Positions 2,581-42,274 of a stretch of DNA of 64,000 nucleotides are shown here, piece after piece. This stretch comes from Brachyspira intermedia PWS/A. GTDB taxonomy: Bacteria; Spirochaetota; Brachyspiria; Brachyspirales; Brachyspiraceae. A model generated the notes under the pieces. The model was not told where the DNA came from, did no database searches, and worked only from the letters and a program-made list of their open reading frames with translations. Numbering within the stretch: position 1 is the first letter of the stretch; the number at the start of each line of letters is the position of its first letter. A program made the translations under genes and the position numbers. The DNA is taken from NCBI RefSeq assembly GCF_000223215.1, contig NC_017243.1:2170001-2234000 (forward strand), read 5' to 3'.

Positions 2581-4092
2581 ATGAAAAAAGTATTTATTAT
2601 ATTATTCTTGTTTAATATACTTTTGTATTCTCAGACTTTAGATGAATCGTTATTTTTAGCTGTAGAAGATAATAACATAGAAGAAGTTAAATCATATTTA
2701 GCTAAAGGAGCAAATCCAAATGCTCGAAATGAATACGGTCTTACATCATTAATGACAGCTGCTGTAAGCGGAAACTATGAAATGGTTAAATTTTTATTAG
2801 AAAATGGTGCTGATATAAATACTAAAGACAATGATGGAAACACTGCGTTATATTATAATATTTGCTATGATCATTATGGAGAAGAAGAAAAACTAGAAAA
2901 TGCTAAAAAAATATTTAATTTATTAATAAAATACGGTGCTGATGTAAATACTAAAGACAATGATGGAGCATCACTTCTTAATAAATCTTATAGAGCTTCA
3001 ACAGCATTGGCACAAAATAGAGAAATGTTTAAAGTATTAGTAGAAAATGGTTTTGACTTAGAATCAAGAATAAAGGCTGGGGAGCATTCTCCTGATGATT
3101 ATGATTATACTCCTTTAATGATAGCAGCTTTAAGAAATGACTATGATATGGTTAAATTTTTAGTTGAAAAAGGTGCCGATGTAAATGCTAAAACACATTA
3201 TAGTTCTGAATATAGCTCAGTAGTAACTCCTCTATTACTCTCATTAGATGATGAACATATTGAATCTAGATATGATGAAAATTCATCTGTTGCAGAATAT
3301 TTAATAAATAATGGTGCTGATATAAATGTAACAAATGAGGATGGAGAGACACCTTTAATGTATGCTTCCAAACTTCATAATATAAAAGTGGTAGAACTTC
3401 TAATACAAAAAGGGGCAAATATAAATGCTTTCGATAATTATGGAAATACAGCCTTAATATATGGTGTAAATAATTTAGAAACAGTAAAATTATTAGTGGA
3501 AAATGGTGCAGATGTAAACTTTTATAAAGGAGGGAGTACTGCTTTAATATCAGCATGTGAGTATAGTCATGAAAGAAATATAGATGTAATAAAATATTTA
3601 GTTTCAAAAAATGCCAATATAAATGCCCAAGATAATAAAGGAGACACAGCTTTAAATAAAACTCTTGATACTTCAGATGAAGGAAGTATTGATATACTAG
3701 ACTTTGAAATAGCTAATTTTTTAATAGAGCAAGGTGCTGATGTAAACATAAAGAATAAACGAGAATATACTCCTTTGATATATCTTGGTATGGGTGAAGG
3801 TAATTTTAATAATAAAAGTTTTCAGGAATATCGTATAGAATTAGCTGAAGTTTTATTAGAAAAAGGTGCAGATATTAATGCTCAAGATTATAATGGATAC
3901 ACTTCTTTAATTTGGGCTTGTGCATCATCAGGATCAAGATTTGCTGAACCATTTGTTAAATTTCTAGTAGAAAAAGGAGCCGATGTAAATATAGAAGATG
4001 ACCATGGAGATACTGCTTTAGATATAGCAGAAGATCTTAAACTTAGAAAAATTGCAGGTATTCTAAAAAAAGCTCAAAGAAATAGAAAGTAA
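2581..4092 (+). CDS. Secreted ankyrin-repeat protein, 503 residues
   Basis: Residues 1-18 form a typical signal peptide (KK, then a hydrophobic stretch ending near YSQ) with no lipobox Cys. The rest is a run of about a dozen 33-residue ankyrin units, recognisable by repeated GADVN/GADIN turns and TPLMYA/TALIYG helices. Ankyrin arrays bind proteins; the partner is unknown, and the signal peptide suggests action in the periplasm or outside the cell. From the sequence YSQTL onward it is closely similar to the lipoprotein at 39564-41921, with many stretches identical at the DNA level, including the 3' end and terminator. The two differ mainly at the N-terminus and in repeat number. Start chosen from the ATG behind AGGGGG. 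Ankyrin identity is certain; function is not known. Confidence 0.9.
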   Translation: MKKVFIILFLFNILLYSQTLDESLFLAVEDNNIEEVKSYLAKGANPNARNEYGLTSLMTAAVSGNYEMVKFLLENGADINTKDNDGNTALYYNICYDHYGEEEKLENAKKIFNLLIKYGADVNTKDNDGASLLNKSYRASTALAQNREMFKVLVENGFDLESRIKAGEHSPDDYDYTPLMIAALRNDYDMVKFLVEKGADVNAKTHYSSEYSSVVTPLLLSLDDEHIESRYDENSSVAEYLINNGADINVTNEDGETPLMYASKLHNIKVVELLIQKGANINAFDNYGNTALIYGVNNLETVKLLVENGADVNFYKGGSTALISACEYSHERNIDVIKYLVSKNANINAQDNKGDTALNKTLDTSDEGSIDILDFEIANFLIEQGADVNIKNKREYTPLIYLGMGEGNFNNKSFQEYRIELAEVLLEKGADINAQDYNGYTSLIWACASSGSRFAEPFVKFLVEKGADVNIEDDHGDTALDIAEDLKLRKIAGILKKAQRNRK

Positions 4093-4111
4093 ATTTTATT
4101 TAAATAAATTA

Positions 4112-4157
4112 AAATCTTCATTATAAAATTGATATAATTTATAATGAAGATTTTTTT
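4112..4157 (+). terminator. Strong intrinsic terminator of the ankyrin gene
   Basis: A perfect 16-bp stem (aaatcttcattataaa at 4112-4127 with tttataatgaagattt at 4138-4153), a 10-nt loop and a T-run. The same hairpin follows the paralogue at 41943, with an identical stem and loop. Confidence 0.9.
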
Positions 4158-4187: not shown

Positions 4188-4569
4188 TATATACCTAAAC
4201 AATTATATTTTGTCAAAAATAAAGTTATATTTTCTTTTTTATATTTGTGGCTTTGCTTCGAAGCACACAGTCGTTCCATACTCTACTTCTTTTGCGACCG
4301 TAGGAAGTGCCTGTGGCGTGCCACAAAGAAGCTATATCCTCGATAAACTCGGATACGCTTCGCGAAAGGCTACATTTGGGCTTTAATTTAATAAATTATC
4401 TTACATGTAAGACAACTTTAACATGATTTAGTACTAATTTTATACTTGCACTTTCGCAAAGCGTGCCTGCGGCAGCAACTTTGACGAAGTCCGCCTCGCT
4501 GTGCGTGCCTTCGGCAGGCGTGCGGCGGGAAAAAGTTGAATAAAAAATGACAAACTCTAAAATTTTCAG
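4188..4569 (+). repeat. TIR-bounded non-coding element, copy A (tandem with copy B)
   Basis: The left end is tatatacctaaacaattata... and the right end is ...aaaattttcagtatata. Their 28-bp termini are imperfect inverted repeats, with 21 of 28 positions matching by hand count. The interior is AT-rich with GC-rich inserts built from small palindromes (ttcgcgaa, cttcgaag, gcctgcggcag, gccttcggcaggc). Copy B begins exactly 382 bp later and shares the junction tatata. No convincing gene is present; the open frames across it have no ribosome-binding site or family match. The layout is MITE-like (non-autonomous miniature transposable element). Confidence 0.75.
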
Positions 4570-4957
4570 TATATACCTAAACAATTATATTTTGTCAAAA
4601 ATAAAATTATATTTTCTTTTTTATATTTGTGGCTTTGCTTCGAAGCACACAGTCGTTCCATACTCTACTTCTTTTGCGACCGTAGGAAGTGCCTGTGGCG
4701 TGCCACAAAGAAGCTATATCCTCGACAAGCTCGGATACGCTTCGCGAAGGGCTATATTTTAGCTTAAATTAATAACCTATCTTACATATAAAACAAAATT
4801 GGTATTATTTAGTACTAATTTTATACTTGCACTTTCGCAAAGCGTGCCTGCGGCAGCAACTTTGACGAAGTCTGCCTCGCTGTGCGTGCCTTCGGCAGGC
4901 GTGCGTCGGGAAAAAGTTGAATAAAAAAATGACAAACTCTAAAATTTTCAGTATATA
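4570..4957 (+). repeat. TIR-bounded non-coding element, copy B
   Basis: A near-identical direct repeat of copy A (a few base differences and small indels), with the same left and right ends and the same GC-rich inserts. A 71-codon open frame running through it from 4547 reads the GC-rich modules. I treat it as chance because it starts in the end of copy A, lacks a ribosome-binding site, and its counterparts in other copies are broken. Confidence 0.75.
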
Positions 4958-19891: not shown

Positions 19892-19970
19892 CCTAAAATT
19901 ATTCGCTCGCTCTGCGTGCCTGCGGCAAGGGCTCTGCTAAATAAATTTAGCAGACGCTCATAATTTTAGG
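19892..19970 (-). repeat. Short palindromic repeat element, copy 3 (fullest form)
   Basis: 79 bp with perfect 10-bp inverted ends: cctaaaatta at 19892 and taattttagg at 19961. Inside are the 8-bp-stem hairpin (ctgctaaa/tttagcag) of copy 1 and the GC-rich block cgctctgcgtgcctgcggca, part of which recurs in copy 2. Read on the minus strand, it matches copy 1 with an 18-bp or so insertion. Confidence 0.7.
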
Positions 19971-20059: not shown

Positions 20060-20409
20060 TATATACTGAAAATTTTTAAGTTTGTCAACCGATGCACTTT
20101 ATATAGAATTATCAACTTTTTTGCCGCACACGCTCTGCGGACTTCGTCAAAGTTGCTGCCACAGGCACGCTTAGCGAAAATGCAATTGCTAGATATTAAA
20201 AAATACTTATTACATATAGGATATATCCTATATGTATACCAAAATGCAGTTGTTCGCGAAGCGTATCCGAGCCTGTAGAGGATATAGGTTCTTTTATACC
20301 AATAAAAGAACTGGGGCATGGCACGACTGTGTGCTTCGCAGCAAAGCCCCGAATATCAAAACAAAAATATAAATTTATCATTGACAAAATATAATTGTTT
20401 AGGTATATA
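20060..20409 (-). repeat. TIR-bounded non-coding element, copy C
   Basis: 350 bp in reverse orientation to copies A and B. The left edge tatatactgaaaatttt... and the right edge ...aattgtttaggtatata correspond to their right and left termini. It has the GC-rich modules (ttcgcgaagcgtatccga, gctgccacaggcacgc), but the middle AT-rich part differs, including an inverted repeat acatataggatatatcctatatgt. With copy 3 of the short repeat it fills the 626-bp gap between kdsA and the cytidylyltransferase gene. No gene seen. Confidence 0.7.
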
Positions 20410-27250: not shown

Positions 27251-27344
27251 AAAAAAACTCCAATAATTTTTTATTATCTAAATAATTCATATATTATAAG
27301 TATAGTAAAAAATTATTGACTTTTCAAGAATTATCAATTATATA

Positions 27345-28130
27345 TTATAATACATTAAAATGTTTTAAAGCATTATAAACGCCGTCATTATCTACATCAT
27401 CTGTAATATAATCTGCTACCTCTTTTACTTCTTCATTAGCATTACCCATAGCAACACCTATAGAAGCATGCTTTATCATAGTAATGTCATTTCCGCCATC
27501 TCCGAAAGCCATTGTTTCTGATAAATCTATGCCATAATATTCTATAATCTTATCTATACCTATATGCTTACCGCCGCCTTTTGTATTAACATCTGTAAAG
27601 TCTGGATGCCATCTGCTTGATTCGCAATTTTTGAATATTTTACTCATTAATTCTTTTTCTTTTTTAGCATCTACAAATAAATTTATTTGCAAAATATCAT
27701 TTATATTTTCTTCTAAAAAATCATAATAATTATCAACGGCCGGTATAGGAAGGTTTATGGACTCAGAAACTCTTTTCACTTTATCTGTAACATAATTAAT
27801 ATATATACCGCTATTCATCATTACAGAGCATGGAAATTGTTCTTTATTTTTTAAATAATCCATCAAAGAATATACTTCTTCTTTAGCTATGCCATGTCTG
27901 TAAATGGACTTATCGCCTATATAACAATCAAAACCATTAGCTGTTATATATCCGTCAAATTCTATACCGTCTACATTGTTTATATGATTCTTTATTCTTC
28001 CTGTAGCTATAAAAACTTTTATACCCTTTTCTTTTAATAGTCTTATAGCCTCTTTAGAAGAATCTGAGACTTTATGTGTATTAAAGCTAACTAAAGTACC
28101 ATCTATATCAAAAAATACTGCTTTTATCAT
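27345..28130 (-). CDS. HAD-IIB (Cof-type) phosphatase 1
   Basis: Haloacid dehalogenase-superfamily phosphatase, probably on sugar phosphates or nucleotides. Motif I FFDIDGTLVSF (nucleophile Asp and DxD), motif II FIATGR, Lys and GGKHIGIDKI for motif III, and motif IV FGDGGNDITMIKHA. The type IIB cap lies between motifs II and III. It is the last of three tandem paralogues and is nearly identical to the middle one over long stretches. GAGGA precedes the ATG. Its position between glgC and glgA suggests sugar-phosphate turnover, but this is inference. Confidence 0.92.
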   Translation of the reverse strand: MIKAVFFDIDGTLVSFNTHKVSDSSKEAIRLLKEKGIKVFIATGRIKNHINNVDGIEFDGYITANGFDCYIGDKSIYRHGIAKEEVYSLMDYLKNKEQFPCSVMMNSGIYINYVTDKVKRVSESINLPIPAVDNYYDFLEENINDILQINLFVDAKKEKELMSKIFKNCESSRWHPDFTDVNTKGGGKHIGIDKIIEYYGIDLSETMAFGDGGNDITMIKHASIGVAMGNANEEVKEVADYITDDVDNDGVYNALKHFNVL

Positions 28131-28152
28131 AAAAAATCCTCACATTTCTACA

Positions 28153-28941
28153 TTAATCTAATATATTAAAATGTTTTAAAGCATTATATATTCCGTCATT
28201 ATCCACATCATCTGTGATATAATCTGCTATCTTTTTTACGCTTTCATTAGCATTTCCCATAGCAACACCTATAGCAGCATGCTTGATCATAGAAGCATCA
28301 TTTCCGCCATCTCCGAATACCATTGTTTCTGATAAGTCTATTCCGTAATACTCAATTATCTTATCTATTCCTATGTGCTTGCCTCCGCCTTTTGTATTAA
28401 CATCTGTTAAAGCCGGATGCCATCTGCTTGATTCGCAATTTTTGAATATTTTACTCATCAATTCTCTTTCTTTTTCTTCATTAACAAATAAATTGATTTG
28501 CAAAATATCATCTATATTTTCTAATAAAAAATCATAATAATTTTCTGCTACATTTATTTTAAGATTAATAGATTCTAAATATTTAGCAACTTCATCAGTA
28601 ATATAATTAATGAATACTCCCTTAGCCATCATCACAGAGCATGGAAATTGTTCTTTATTTTTTAAATAATCTATAAGTGAATATATTTCTTCTTTAGCTA
28701 TAGAATGTCTGTAAATGGACTTATCGCCTATATAACAATCAAAACCATTCGCTGTTATATATCCGTCAAACTCTATATTATCTACATTATTTATATGCAT
28801 TTTGATTCTTCCAGTTGCTATAAATACTTTTATTCCTTTTTCTTTTAAAATTCTAATAGCTTCTTTAGAAGAATCTGAAATCTTATGAGTATTAAAACTA
28901 ACCAAAGTACCGTCTATATCAAAAAATACCGCCTTAATCAT
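28153..28941 (-). CDS. HAD-IIB (Cof-type) phosphatase 2
   Basis: Same motifs as its neighbours: FFDIDGTLVSF, FIATGR, GGKHIGIDKIIEYYG and FGDGGNDASMIKHA. I place the start at the ATG at 28941 (AAAGG seven bases upstream), giving 262 residues and aligning with the paralogues. The longer reading from 28968 adds nine residues that match nothing and overlaps the gene upstream. Differences from copy 1 are concentrated in the cap (residues 110-160), the part that decides substrate, so the copies may act on different phosphates. Confidence 0.91.
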   Translation of the reverse strand: MIKAVFFDIDGTLVSFNTHKISDSSKEAIRILKEKGIKVFIATGRIKMHINNVDNIEFDGYITANGFDCYIGDKSIYRHSIAKEEIYSLIDYLKNKEQFPCSVMMAKGVFINYITDEVAKYLESINLKINVAENYYDFLLENIDDILQINLFVNEEKERELMSKIFKNCESSRWHPALTDVNTKGGGKHIGIDKIIEYYGIDLSETMVFGDGGNDASMIKHAAIGVAMGNANESVKKIADYITDDVDNDGIYNALKHFNILD

Positions 28942-28964
28942 ACAAAAACCTTTATTTACAACAA

Positions 28965-29762
28965 TCAATCCAATATATTAAAATGTTTCAAAGCCTTATA
29001 TACTCCGTCATTATCAACATCATCTGTAATATAATCTGCTATTTTTTTCACATTTTCATTAGCATTACCCATAGCAACACCTATAGCAGCATGCTTAATC
29101 ATACCTATATCATTTCCTCCGTCTCCGAAAGCCATTGTTTCTGACAAGTCTATTCCATAATATTCGATTATCTTATCTATACCTATATCTTTACCGCTAT
29201 ATTTTGAATTTACATCTGCAAAAGAAAAATGCCATCTGCTTGACTTAGAATTTTTTAATACATTATCCATTAAATATTTTTCTTTATTTTCATCTACAAA
29301 AATATTAAGCTGGAGAATCTTATCATAATTATTTGGTACATAATCATTAAAGTCTCTAGACTCTGGAACTTTCACATTTGCCATACTATAAAGATGTGCT
29401 ATTATATCATCTGTATAATTAATAAATAAATTATCGCTTGTTATTACTGTACAAGGAAATTTATCTTTATTTAGATAATCAACTAAAGCAAATAAATCAT
29501 CTTTATCTAAAGAAACTCTATATATTTCTTTATAATTTCCATTATCTTTTACTAAACAGCTTCCGCCATTTATCGTTATATAGCCGTCGAAATATAGACC
29601 GTCCAAATTATCTATTTGAAATAAAGCCCTTCCACTTGCTATAAAAACTTTTATTCCTTTATCTTTTAAAATTTTAATAGCCTCTTTGGAAGAATCTGAA
29701 ATTTTATGCGTATTAAAACTCACCAAAGTACCATCTATATCAAAAAATACTGCTTTTATCAT
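28965..29762 (-). CDS. HAD-IIB (Cof-type) phosphatase 3
   Basis: First and most diverged member of the tandem set, 265 residues. Core motifs are unchanged: FFDIDGTLVSF, FIASGR, KDIGIDKIIEYYG and FGDGGNDIGMIKHA. The cap differs more (about residues 80-180, for example CLVKDNGNYKEIYRVSL). The ATG has only a weak ribosome site. A divergent cap with a conserved core is what would be expected of duplication followed by change in specificity. Confidence 0.91.
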   Translation of the reverse strand: MIKAVFFDIDGTLVSFNTHKISDSSKEAIKILKDKGIKVFIASGRALFQIDNLDGLYFDGYITINGGSCLVKDNGNYKEIYRVSLDKDDLFALVDYLNKDKFPCTVITSDNLFINYTDDIIAHLYSMANVKVPESRDFNDYVPNNYDKILQLNIFVDENKEKYLMDNVLKNSKSSRWHFSFADVNSKYSGKDIGIDKIIEYYGIDLSETMAFGDGGNDIGMIKHAAIGVAMGNANENVKKIADYITDDVDNDGVYKALKHFNILD

Positions 29763-39563: not shown

Positions 39564-41921
39564 ATGAAAAATATTATTTCCATTATTTCTATTTTTGTTT
39601 TAATAGCCTGCAGCTGCGGTAACAGCGGCAATACTAAACAAACAGAAAATACTCAAACTAATCAAACTCAAACAAATGAACAAGTATATATTAATCCAAC
39701 AACTACAAATACTAATGAATATGTTCAAGGTATAAAAATGTATCCTATGTATTCTCAGACTTTAGGTGGATCGTTATTTTTAGCTGTAAAATATAATAAC
39801 ATAGAAGAAGTTAAATCATATTTAGATAAAGGAGCAAATCCAAATGCTCAAGATGAATACGGTTTTACAGCATTAATGTACGCTACTTTAATCGATATAG
39901 CAAAATTACTTATAGAAGAAGGTACTGATGTCAATATTAAAGATAATGCAGGTGCTACATCATTAATGTATGCTGCTAGAGATACAAATTATGAAATGGT
40001 TGAATTTTTATTAAAAAATGGTGCTGATGTAAATATTAGAGATACATCAGGAAAAACTGCATTATATTATAGTATTCAGCATGATAGTTTCGGACAAGAA
40101 AATGCTATAAAAATACTTAATTTATTAATAAAATACGGTGCTGATGTAAATACTAAAGACAATGATGGAGCATCTCTCCTTGATGTATCCTATAGAATTT
40201 CAGAATCTTTTGATAAAAATAAAGAAATGTTTAAAATATTAGTTGAAAATGGTTTTGATTTAGAGTCAAGAATAAAGACGGGTAGATCTGATTATGATTA
40301 TACTCCTTTAATGATAGCAGCTTTAAGAAATGATTATGATATGGTTAAATATTTGCTTGATAAAGGTGCCAATCCTAATACAGTAAATAATGAAAACAAA
40401 ACAGCTTTAACGATTGCTAATGATTATGGAAAATTTGATATTTCAAAATTACTTATACAACAAGGTGCAAATATAAACACACAAGATGAAGAGGGCTGTA
40501 CAGCATTAATGAACGCTACTATGATAGGAGACTATGAAATGGTTAAATTTTTATTAGAAAATGGTGCCAATATAAATACTAAAGACAATGATGGAAACAC
40601 TGTATTATATTATAATATTCGCTATGATCATTACGAAAAAGAAGAAAAACTAGAAAATGCTAAAAAAATATTTAATTTATTAATAAAATATGGTGCTGAT
40701 ATAAATACTAAAAACAATTATGGAGCATCACTTCTTGATACAGCTTATACAACAGAATTGGCACTAAATAGAGAAATGTTTAAAGTATTAGTAGAAAATG
40801 GTTTTGACTTAGAATCAAGAATAAAGGGTGGGGAGTATTATTCTCCTGCTGATTATGATTATACTCCTTTAATGATAGCAGCTTTAAGAAATGACTATGA
40901 TATGGTTAAATTTTTAGTTGAAAAAGGTGCCGATGTAAATGCTAAAACACATTCTGAACATAGCTCAGTAGAAACTCCCCTATTACTCTCATTAGATAAT
41001 GAACATCCTGACTATAGATATTATTATTATAAAAATGAAAATTCATCTGCTGCAGAATTTTTAATAAATAATGGTGCAGATATAAATGTAACAAATGAGG
41101 ATGGAGAAACACCTTTAATGTATGCTTCCAAACTTCATAATATAAAAGTGGCAGAACTTCTAATACAAAAAGGTGCAGATATAAATGTAATAAATGAGGA
41201 TGGAAAGACACCTTTAATGTATGCTTCCAAACTTCATAATATAAAAGTGGTAGAACTTCTAATACAAAAAGGTGCAGATATAAATGCTTTCGATGATTAT
41301 GGAAATACAGCCTTAATGTATGGTGTAAATAATTTAGAAACAGTAAAATTATTAGTTGAAAACGGTGCTGATGTAAACTTTTATAAAGGAGGAAGTACTG
41401 CTTTAATATTAGCATGTAAACCTAGTTTGGAAATAAATATAGACGTAATAAAATATTTAGTTTCAAAAAATGCTGATATAAATGCCCAAGATAATGAAGG
41501 ATACACAGCTTTAAACAAAACTCTTACTACTATGCCAGACTTTGAAATAGCTCATTTTTTAATAGAGCAAGGTGCTGATGTAAACATAAAGAATAAAAAC
41601 CAATATACTCCTTTGATACATCTTGGTATGCTTGAAGGTAGTTTTTATAATATAAGTTTTCAGGAAAATCGTATAAAATTAGCTGAAGTTTTATTAGAAA
41701 AAGGTGCAGATATTAATGCTCAAGATTATAATGGATACACTTCTTTAATGTGGGCTTGTACAAGAAAATCTAATGAATCATTTGTTAAATTTCTAGTAGA
41801 AAAAGGAGCCGATGTAAATATAGAAGATGACGATGGAGATACTGCTTTAGATATGGCAGAGAATCTTAAACTTAGAGAAATTGCAGATATTCTAAAAAAA
41901 GCTCAAAGAAATGTAAAGTAA
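39564..41921 (+). CDS. Ankyrin-repeat lipoprotein, 785 residues
   Basis: The N-terminus is a lipoprotein signal with lipobox LIAC (Cys at about residue 17), followed by a Ser/Asn/Thr/Gln-rich linker of about 50 residues. From YSQTL on, the protein matches the secreted 503-residue paralogue at 2581, but with about 20 ankyrin units. The extra length comes from an internal duplication: the block with MFKILVENGFDLESRIK and DYDYTPLMIAALRNDYDM occurs twice, and one 33-residue unit is present as two adjacent near-identical copies. It is expected to sit on an outer or inner membrane leaflet and bind a partner. Strong promoter, strong terminator. Function unknown. Confidence 0.9.
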   Translation: MKNIISIISIFVLIACSCGNSGNTKQTENTQTNQTQTNEQVYINPTTTNTNEYVQGIKMYPMYSQTLGGSLFLAVKYNNIEEVKSYLDKGANPNAQDEYGFTALMYATLIDIAKLLIEEGTDVNIKDNAGATSLMYAARDTNYEMVEFLLKNGADVNIRDTSGKTALYYSIQHDSFGQENAIKILNLLIKYGADVNTKDNDGASLLDVSYRISESFDKNKEMFKILVENGFDLESRIKTGRSDYDYTPLMIAALRNDYDMVKYLLDKGANPNTVNNENKTALTIANDYGKFDISKLLIQQGANINTQDEEGCTALMNATMIGDYEMVKFLLENGANINTKDNDGNTVLYYNIRYDHYEKEEKLENAKKIFNLLIKYGADINTKNNYGASLLDTAYTTELALNREMFKVLVENGFDLESRIKGGEYYSPADYDYTPLMIAALRNDYDMVKFLVEKGADVNAKTHSEHSSVETPLLLSLDNEHPDYRYYYYKNENSSAAEFLINNGADINVTNEDGETPLMYASKLHNIKVAELLIQKGADINVINEDGKTPLMYASKLHNIKVVELLIQKGADINAFDDYGNTALMYGVNNLETVKLLVENGADVNFYKGGSTALILACKPSLEINIDVIKYLVSKNADINAQDNEGYTALNKTLTTMPDFEIAHFLIEQGADVNIKNKNQYTPLIHLGMLEGSFYNISFQENRIKLAEVLLEKGADINAQDYNGYTSLMWACTRKSNESFVKFLVEKGADVNIEDDDGDTALDMAENLKLREIADILKKAQRNVK
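41076..41285 (+). repeat. Recent 99-bp tandem duplication of one ankyrin unit
   Basis: Two adjacent 33-codon units, each containing TPLMYASKLHNIKV and LLIQKGADIN, differ at only a few bases. The paralogue at 2581 has a single copy of the unit. This shows recent change in repeat number. Confidence 0.85.
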
Positions 41922-41942
41922 ATTTTATATTTAAATAAATTA

Positions 41943-41987
41943 AAATCTTCATTATAAAATTGATATAATTTATAATGAAGATTTTTT
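41943..41987 (+). terminator. Strong intrinsic terminator of the ankyrin lipoprotein gene
   Basis: The same 16-bp perfect stem and 10-nt loop as at 4112-4157 (aaatcttcattataaa / tttataatgaagattt), followed by a T-run. Confidence 0.9.
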
Positions 41988-42012: not shown

Positions 42013-42274
42013 TATATACCAAAAATTTTTAACTTTGTCAATTTGTTTATTGTTCTTTTTCCCGCCGCAAAAAGAACCAAAAAGTGCAAGTGTAAAAATT
42101 AGTACTAAATCATACTAAAAATGTTTTACATGTAATATAATTTATTAAATTAAAGCCCAATATAGCCTTTTTGCTTCTTTGTGGCAACAAAAGAAGTGGG
42201 GTTTGGGGCAAAGCCCCAAATATAAAAATAAAAATATAAATTGATTTTTGATAAAATATAATTGTTTAGGTATA
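42013..42274 (-). repeat. TIR-bounded non-coding element, copy E (without most GC-rich modules)
   Basis: 262 bp, reverse orientation. Ends tatataccaaaaattttta... and ...aattgtttaggtata match the other copies. It keeps the AT-rich backbone of A and B (for example gtaaaaattagtactaaatc and ttattaaattaaagccca) but lacks three GC-rich blocks those copies carry. At one site cttctttgtggcaacaaaag replaces a version with about 23 extra GC-rich bases. With the terminator it fills the 365-bp gap before yqeB. Confidence 0.72.

Follow-up and report, generated by a model that had tools for sequence, protein, structure and literature searches.

Copy E of a repeat family lies between a 785-aa ankyrin-repeat gene, with the terminator-like hairpin of that gene, and the next gene, in a 64,000-nucleotide stretch of Brachyspira intermedia PWS/A (here, the window; positions 2170001-2234000 of a 3,304,788-bp contig, the host total being 3,308,048 bases including a 3,260-bp second contig). 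Two ankyrin-repeat paralogues (2624-4156 and 39748-41987) have the terminator-like hairpin in common (98% identity over 63 bp), and both are directly followed by family elements, copies A and B in minus orientation and copy E in plus. The features of copy E are as follows:

42017-42272, plus strand: copy E, a MITE-like element (TACC...GGTA) without any GC-rich module, delimited by a whole-element empty site in G007 and by the end patterns
42015-42016: left TA target duplication of E, from the filled/empty comparison with L400 (G007)
42273-42274: right TA target duplication of E, from the same comparison with L400 (G007)
42069-42070, plus strand: empty module site 57 of E, where the G014 orthologue has the module TACGCTCTGCGGACTTCGT
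42170-42171, plus strand: empty module site 158 of E, where the G014 orthologue has CGCGAAGCGTATCCGAGCTTGTCGAGGATA
42187-42188, plus strand: empty module site 175 of E, where the G014 orthologue has TACTTACAGTACTTCCTTCGGTCG; this is the junction quoted in the first-pass annotation

The other members of the family in the window, and one module standing apart from it, are:

4192-4571, minus strand: copy A, with modules at five sites and in opposite orientation to E
4258-4275, minus strand: A module, site 194
4296-4318, minus strand: A module, site 174, 23 nt
4335-4364, minus strand: A module, site 158, 30 nt
4455-4474, minus strand: A module near site 68, a double hairpin
4491-4520, minus strand: A module, site 57, whose loop contains a second, nested module
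4574-4953, minus strand: copy B, with modules at the five sites of A
4640-4657, minus strand: B module, site 194
4678-4700, minus strand: B module, site 174
4717-4746, minus strand: B module, site 158
4836-4855, minus strand: B module near site 68
4878-4897, minus strand: B module nested in the site-57 module
20064-20405, plus strand: another member of the family, its modules lying at 20130-20148, 20157-20176, 20253-20286 and 20322-20339
19908-19927, plus strand: double-hairpin module CGCTCTGCGTGCCTGCGGCA, outside the element and beside a different inverted repeat

The last of these is adjoined by the second copy of a 42-bp repeat with TGCTAAAT...ATTTAGCA, whose two copies (2263-2304 and 19926-19967) stand in opposite orientation. 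Copies A and B are arranged head to tail and joined through one shared TA, and tandem copies of the family share TATATA. The locus of E is empty in the related genome G007, where TTATATA is followed by ATCTAAAA and the host reads TTATATA-TACC...GGTA-TA-ATCTAAAA (L400 alignment), so that the element consists of TACC...GGTA, 42017-42272, and duplicates TA. At the same locus of G025, a copy in reverse orientation lies some 50 bp from this site, within the terminator loop; it too is at a TA.

The copy number of this family is far beyond chance. The left-end pattern was detected at 71+81 places in the genome against 0+0 for the control, a count that at three mismatches includes some right ends, and the right-end pattern at 57+55 places against 4+2 for the reversed control pattern. 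BLAST with E returned 71 matching pieces in the host genome, and pairing of ends in the stretches taken yielded 92 left-right pairs at a loose threshold; a stricter threshold, with ends no more than 700 bp apart, gave 81 left-right (LE-RE), 11 right-right and 6 left-left pairs. Elements with two right or two left ends (970984-971434, 1004234-1004569 and 2137055-2137490 in the host, G000, among others) look as if the ends were interchangeable. The LE and RE consensus sequences share TATATAC, AAA and TTTGTCA in mirror position, constituting imperfect TIRs; TA is duplicated, with an empty site proven at one locus (L400); and the 81 LE-RE pairs occur without a transposase gene, all as in a MITE. 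No element-length ORF was seen in family elements, an observation made outside any systematic survey. The exact left-end pattern is present in at least 120 stretches of the contig database, and all 80 listed are from Brachyspira.

The profile PF13358 (IS630/Tc1-type DDE) matched nothing in the host and a single, broken sequence across 26 genomes of the genus, and no cognate DDE transposase with the same TIRs, as in a MITE mobilised by IS630/Tc1-mariner elements, was found among them; the cognate enzyme may have been lost or may be of another family. LE-LE and RE-RE spans of 1.9-2.7 kb were considered as autonomous transposons and rejected: judged by eye, none of their inner ORFs is transposase-like, and these look like an AAA-type ATPase, a MATE-type transporter and ankyrin repeats. 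The RNA folds of E (z -3.81) and of copy A (z -4.01) are better than those of shuffled sequences. An RNA gene or riboswitch was rejected on Rfam scores (best 20.8 and 20.7 bits, below gathering thresholds of 47.2 and 64), as was a tRNA-related element, there being none in the window. No Brachyspira paper on this repeat family was found in the literature searched, whose scope leaves out most subscription journals.

Copy E had been described in the first-pass annotation as continuous across three positions at which A and B hold GC-rich inserts. The quoted junction reads as given, with cttctttgtggca-A-caaaagaagt in E and CGCCACAGGCACTTCCTACGGTC (23 bases) at that place in A. The continuity of E is likewise borne out, but pairwise alignment places the inserts of A and B at five sites rather than three: 57/65 (29 nt, composite), 68 (26), 158 (30), 174 (23) and 194 (18). 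By coincidence, three is the exact number of modules separating E from its orthologue in G014 (L375). This orthologue occupies the same site in the same orientation; it agrees with E at 262 of 264 bases (the two non-identical columns may be alignment edge effects) and with the spacer at all 91, and the flanking genes are 96.4% and 94.7% identical to those of the host. It differs by exactly three extra GC-rich modules, TACGCTCTGCGGACTTCGT at site 57, CGCGAAGCGTATCCGAGCTTGTCGAGGATA at site 158 and TACTTACAGTACTTCCTTCGGTCG at site 175. Copy E has either never borne modules or lost three of them precisely; the comparison at E is with one relative, G014, a metagenome bin.

Comparable differences were observed at other loci. 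A first set of 14 alignments, covering 13 host loci and made against G014, G022 and G025, contains two in which modules are the sole difference, both against G022, which does not have them: two modules at 558597-558900 (L421) and four at 2648755-2650630 (L429; 98.3% identical). L423 is a tandem copy, and most other alignments of this set present a wholesale change of the element (L411, L419, L420, L426/L436, L427, L433, L439). A second set covered 50 loci, of which 22 could be aligned, 23 had too little flank match and five a span mismatch; most aligned loci with many differences were tallied as a count only. Four module pieces of the element at 2557420-2557834, one nested in another module, are missing from G007 (L471), an isolate-grade genome with a 3.04 Mb contig, and three modules are missing at 2059842 from G025 (L437; 2.24 Mb contig), together with other changes. 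Since modules are extra in G014 at E and missing in G022, G007 and G025, changes have occurred in both directions relative to the host. Misassembly of short-read repeats is possible in G014 and G022, which are metagenome bins.

Modules also combine freely. Among 38 E-like copies (of 89 aligned), 23 presence patterns were found over seven sites, at which modules are present in 11, 13, 4, 15, 17, 16 and 18 copies, respectively. E had been proposed as the empty copy, and empty it is, although not alone: four of the 38, E included, are empty at every site. Modules are thus double-hairpin units, lodged within MITEs, that are gained or lost one by one.

Modules are typically 20-21 nt long (range about 18-32 nt) and are built of a 9- or 10-nt hairpin with a 3-bp stem directly joined to an 11-nt hairpin with a 4-bp stem. 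Of the 17 modules whose borders are set by orthologue gaps, twelve can be divided exactly into two adjacent hairpins when the frame is allowed to shift by up to two bases, against a mean of 0.09 and a maximum of 2 in 300 shuffles; the remaining five, including all three at E, cannot. Clean 21-nt insertions lacking TA, or similar ones, account for five of the 17, and the borders of several slide by one or two bases. At site 166, the second stem changes from GGC/GCC to TAC/GTA in four of 17 inserts, the two outer pairs changing together. No target duplication accompanies module insertions, at which zero to two bases are replaced. In G006, a single 11-nt hairpin, CGCCACAGGCG, lies near the place of a 21-nt double one in the host.

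Element zones (89 kb) contain 116 strict double hairpins, against 15 in the 338 kb of remaining host DNA examined, which was chosen around elements; first-order Markov controls gave 1, 0, 0, 0 and 0. The heptamer GCGAAGC, an unusually stable DNA mini-hairpin, is part of many modules and occurs 122 times in element zones and 11 times outside. Single modules are no more stable in folding energy than composition-matched shuffles, so energy provides no argument here. Stable mini-hairpins as a general concept are treated in passages of PMC10527192.

A genome-wide search with four module patterns located 161 distinct places, 95 of them between two ends and 51 near one end; the rest comprise 13 called as element-like bodies and two with neither end nor body. 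Modules outside TIR elements, which the first-pass annotation had proposed to seek, do exist, yet 146 of the 161 places are within reach of a TIR end. Because most places are in or beside family elements, module spread may be mostly passive. The places at 1762258 and 1762419, in the ssb region, were scored as element remnants because neighbouring modules matched, but by eye they lie outside elements.

In this region of the host, a stretch of about 450 bp has five modules, which lie in a prophage-type ssb gene or immediately behind it. All five are absent from five of the six homologues compared (G022, G015, G004, G025 and G008), whereas L197 (G006) has some of them. The module-free homologues, among them that of the single-contig genome G004, keep an open frame of 128-129 aa (Pfam SSB). 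The gene after ssb contains two 21-nt modules, absent from all seven well-aligning loci of the 16 examined, and one of these is, relative to L219, a clean insertion with no bases lost. In-frame 21-nt modules at 600-2001 of L178 and 11640-12047 of L189 would add, for example, DCPPAAR to a predicted protein. G006 has modules at two of the ssb positions used in the host, identical at 19 of 19 and 18 of 19 bases, in flanks that resemble those of G015 (one mismatch in 40 bases at either site), although G015 itself is without modules. Modules may have arrived repeatedly at the same nucleotide, or be old and exactly lost several times, or have been carried by very short conversion tracts. Comparisons of module-bearing and module-free ssb genes gave dN/dS values of 0.15-0.22, except for G006-G015 (0.86) and G006-G004 (0.42), and branch values obtained by hand arithmetic from small numbers are about 1.0 for G006, 0.36 for the host and 0.15-0.3 for three module-free branches. 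These branch values, small as the numbers are, fit recent insertion followed by decay better than tolerance of harmless modules in ssb.

With defined borders, filled and empty orthologous sites, free combination, hairpin anatomy and places outside TIR elements, these modules are probably one of two layers of mobile DNA, in which GC-rich inner modules are gained and lost as units within a MITE-like outer element. The outer layer would be an element of mostly about 240-450 bp, with imperfect terminal repeats of about 28 bp, that inserts at TA and duplicates it. Modules would enter or leave this element at fixed positions, in or beside its own hairpins, and would occasionally enter genes. They may spread by copying from other modules, conceivably with the aid of a trans-acting enzyme whose substrate would probably be hairpin DNA in single-stranded form, or else by way of RNA. 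The suggestion that modules move or are lost on their own is supported by the E orthologue, the free combinations and the places outside TIR elements. The simple deletion set against it in the first-pass annotation called for modules found only within TIR elements and always together, which is at odds with the modules in ssb and the next gene and with the 23 combinations.

Ordinary deletion, whereby ancestral modules were lost from E by replication slippage and nothing moves by itself, strikes us as unlikely. It accords with the location of modules in hairpins, palindromes being often deletion-prone, and with differences that run the same way at each locus (three missing at E, four missing in G022 at 2648755-2650630). 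The modules in ssb and the next gene nonetheless need insertion, as module-free homologues keep an open frame; many base-precise losses would be required in places without flanking direct repeats, and nested modules and 23 combinations are unlike mere decay. Gene conversion between dispersed copies, which would swap interiors and shift module content without module mobility, also appears doubtful, even though one genome has more than 100 similar copies and many orthologous loci show wholesale element replacement. Apart from its modules, the element is unaltered at E, 558597 and 2648755-2650630, and the other E-like copies differ from E by at least 8%, so that a conversion tract would have left substitutions; modules in genes are left unexplained as well. 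Template switching at hairpins (quasi-palindrome mutation) could make modules in place, given that all are palindromic and mostly in or beside hairpins, and that G006 has the single hairpin CGCCACAGGCG near the double one of the host. We regard it as quite improbable, since the same few module sequences recur genome-wide and at unrelated sites, CGCCAAAGGCGGACAGCGT being found both in ssb and in element 3076458-, and the AT-rich gene has no local templates for a GC-rich stem. An assembly artefact, in which collapsed repeats in draft genomes such as the bins G014 and G022 mimic module differences, is very improbable, because the same kind of difference appears in the long contigs of G007 and G025 and the module-free ssb homologues include one from a single-contig genome.

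An extension of the two-layer reading can be proposed only speculatively, and we doubt that it holds: modules that are site-directed, as the same ssb nucleotide in otherwise different flanks might suggest, would be the smallest independently mobile DNA units of a bacterium, and host genes might tolerate them through skipping or removal at the RNA or translation level. Mitochondrial bypassing elements are skipped or removed at these levels.

Among known systems, the modules resemble in kind mitochondrial double-hairpin elements and GC clusters, besides bacterial MITEs and Rickettsia palindromic elements. They would be candidate members of these mitochondrial groups; at 20 nt a sequence holds too little information to trace common descent with the mitochondrial elements. 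As described in passages of PMC2800124, the double-hairpin elements of Allomyces mitochondria and the hairpin repeats of sponges are also small, GC-rich double hairpins that are dispersed and vary between close relatives; such elements occasionally insert into coding sequences, and no flanking duplication is reported in those passages for the Allomyces ones, which are known here through the citing papers PMC2800124 and PMC4478555. Two adjoining hairpins, as in these elements, were found in 12 of the 17 gap-defined modules and not in five, and presence/absence at orthologous sites was observed, but the modules reside in a bacterial chromosome, are only about 20 nt long and are mostly nested at fixed positions in a TIR element. 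Yeast mitochondrial GC clusters (GC42 and others), according to parts of PMC4478555, are GC-rich palindromes in an AT-rich genome with presence/absence polymorphism, whose units merge and shuffle and whose stem pairs are more conserved than loops, all as in the modules; they have a putative AG target duplication, whereas the modules have none and their host is bacterial.

The outer element is comparable to Correia/NEMIS, RUP and ERIC, which excerpts of PMC2229807 describe as non-autonomous, with TIRs, 5'-TA ends and a TSD; Correia occurs with and without an internal 50-bp piece, and use of an IS630 enzyme at TA has been proposed for RUP (same excerpts). It differs from them in having at least seven internal sites, each freely taking small double-hairpin units, in a host where the search for an IS630-type DDE_3 gene found none. 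Rickettsia palindromic elements are, like some modules, palindromic repeats inside reading frames, but are given in parts of PMC2229807 and PMC10969869 as single long stem-loops, of 105-146 bp in one review and of about 150 bp in the other; the modules, double and about 20 nt (18-32 nt), fall outside the 105-150 bp range and conserved peptide of that class. REP/CGTC repeats are short GC-rich palindromes as well, and those of the CGTC type are mentioned in portions of PMC3733652 as occurring in some Spirochaetes without a known enzyme. They have one 8-9 bp stem and a terminal CGTC tag (same portions), and the modules have neither the single stem of about 5-13 bp nor the terminal tetranucleotide, GTAG or CGTC, of REPs, but two stems of 3 and 4 bp and no constant tag.

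These hairpin modules of about 20 bases may be among the smallest mobile DNAs so far known from bacteria, and would form a second, much smaller mobile-DNA layer living inside a MITE. In the literature searched, exact gain and loss of hairpin units this small (about 20 bp) is documented chiefly in mitochondria, where the mode of movement is likewise unsettled; a bacterium that can be cultured, and that has many copies, modules inserted within modules and orthologous filled/empty pairs, would make the mechanism testable. Modules also explain a large part of the GC-rich intergenic islands in the AT-rich genus Brachyspira.

The host region around the module-bearing ssb gene (1752000-1767000, L189) is prophage- or plasmid-like, with an integrase, an AAA replication protein and an N6 methylase. 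No phage relatives of the ssb region were matched in 50,697 records, and a module pattern scan of viral contigs hit 32, with a pattern short enough for chance in GC-rich DNA. In G006, the ssb region has a different MITE-like insert, about 250 bp long and with ends ACTTGTTTCAAAACTA, which itself contains hairpins resembling those of the E family; it lies in L197, close to query position 65 of L189:9980-12100, and is present in L387 as well. Elsewhere in the window, 27343-29762 comprises three direct repeats with a spacing of about 811 bp and 81-88% identity.
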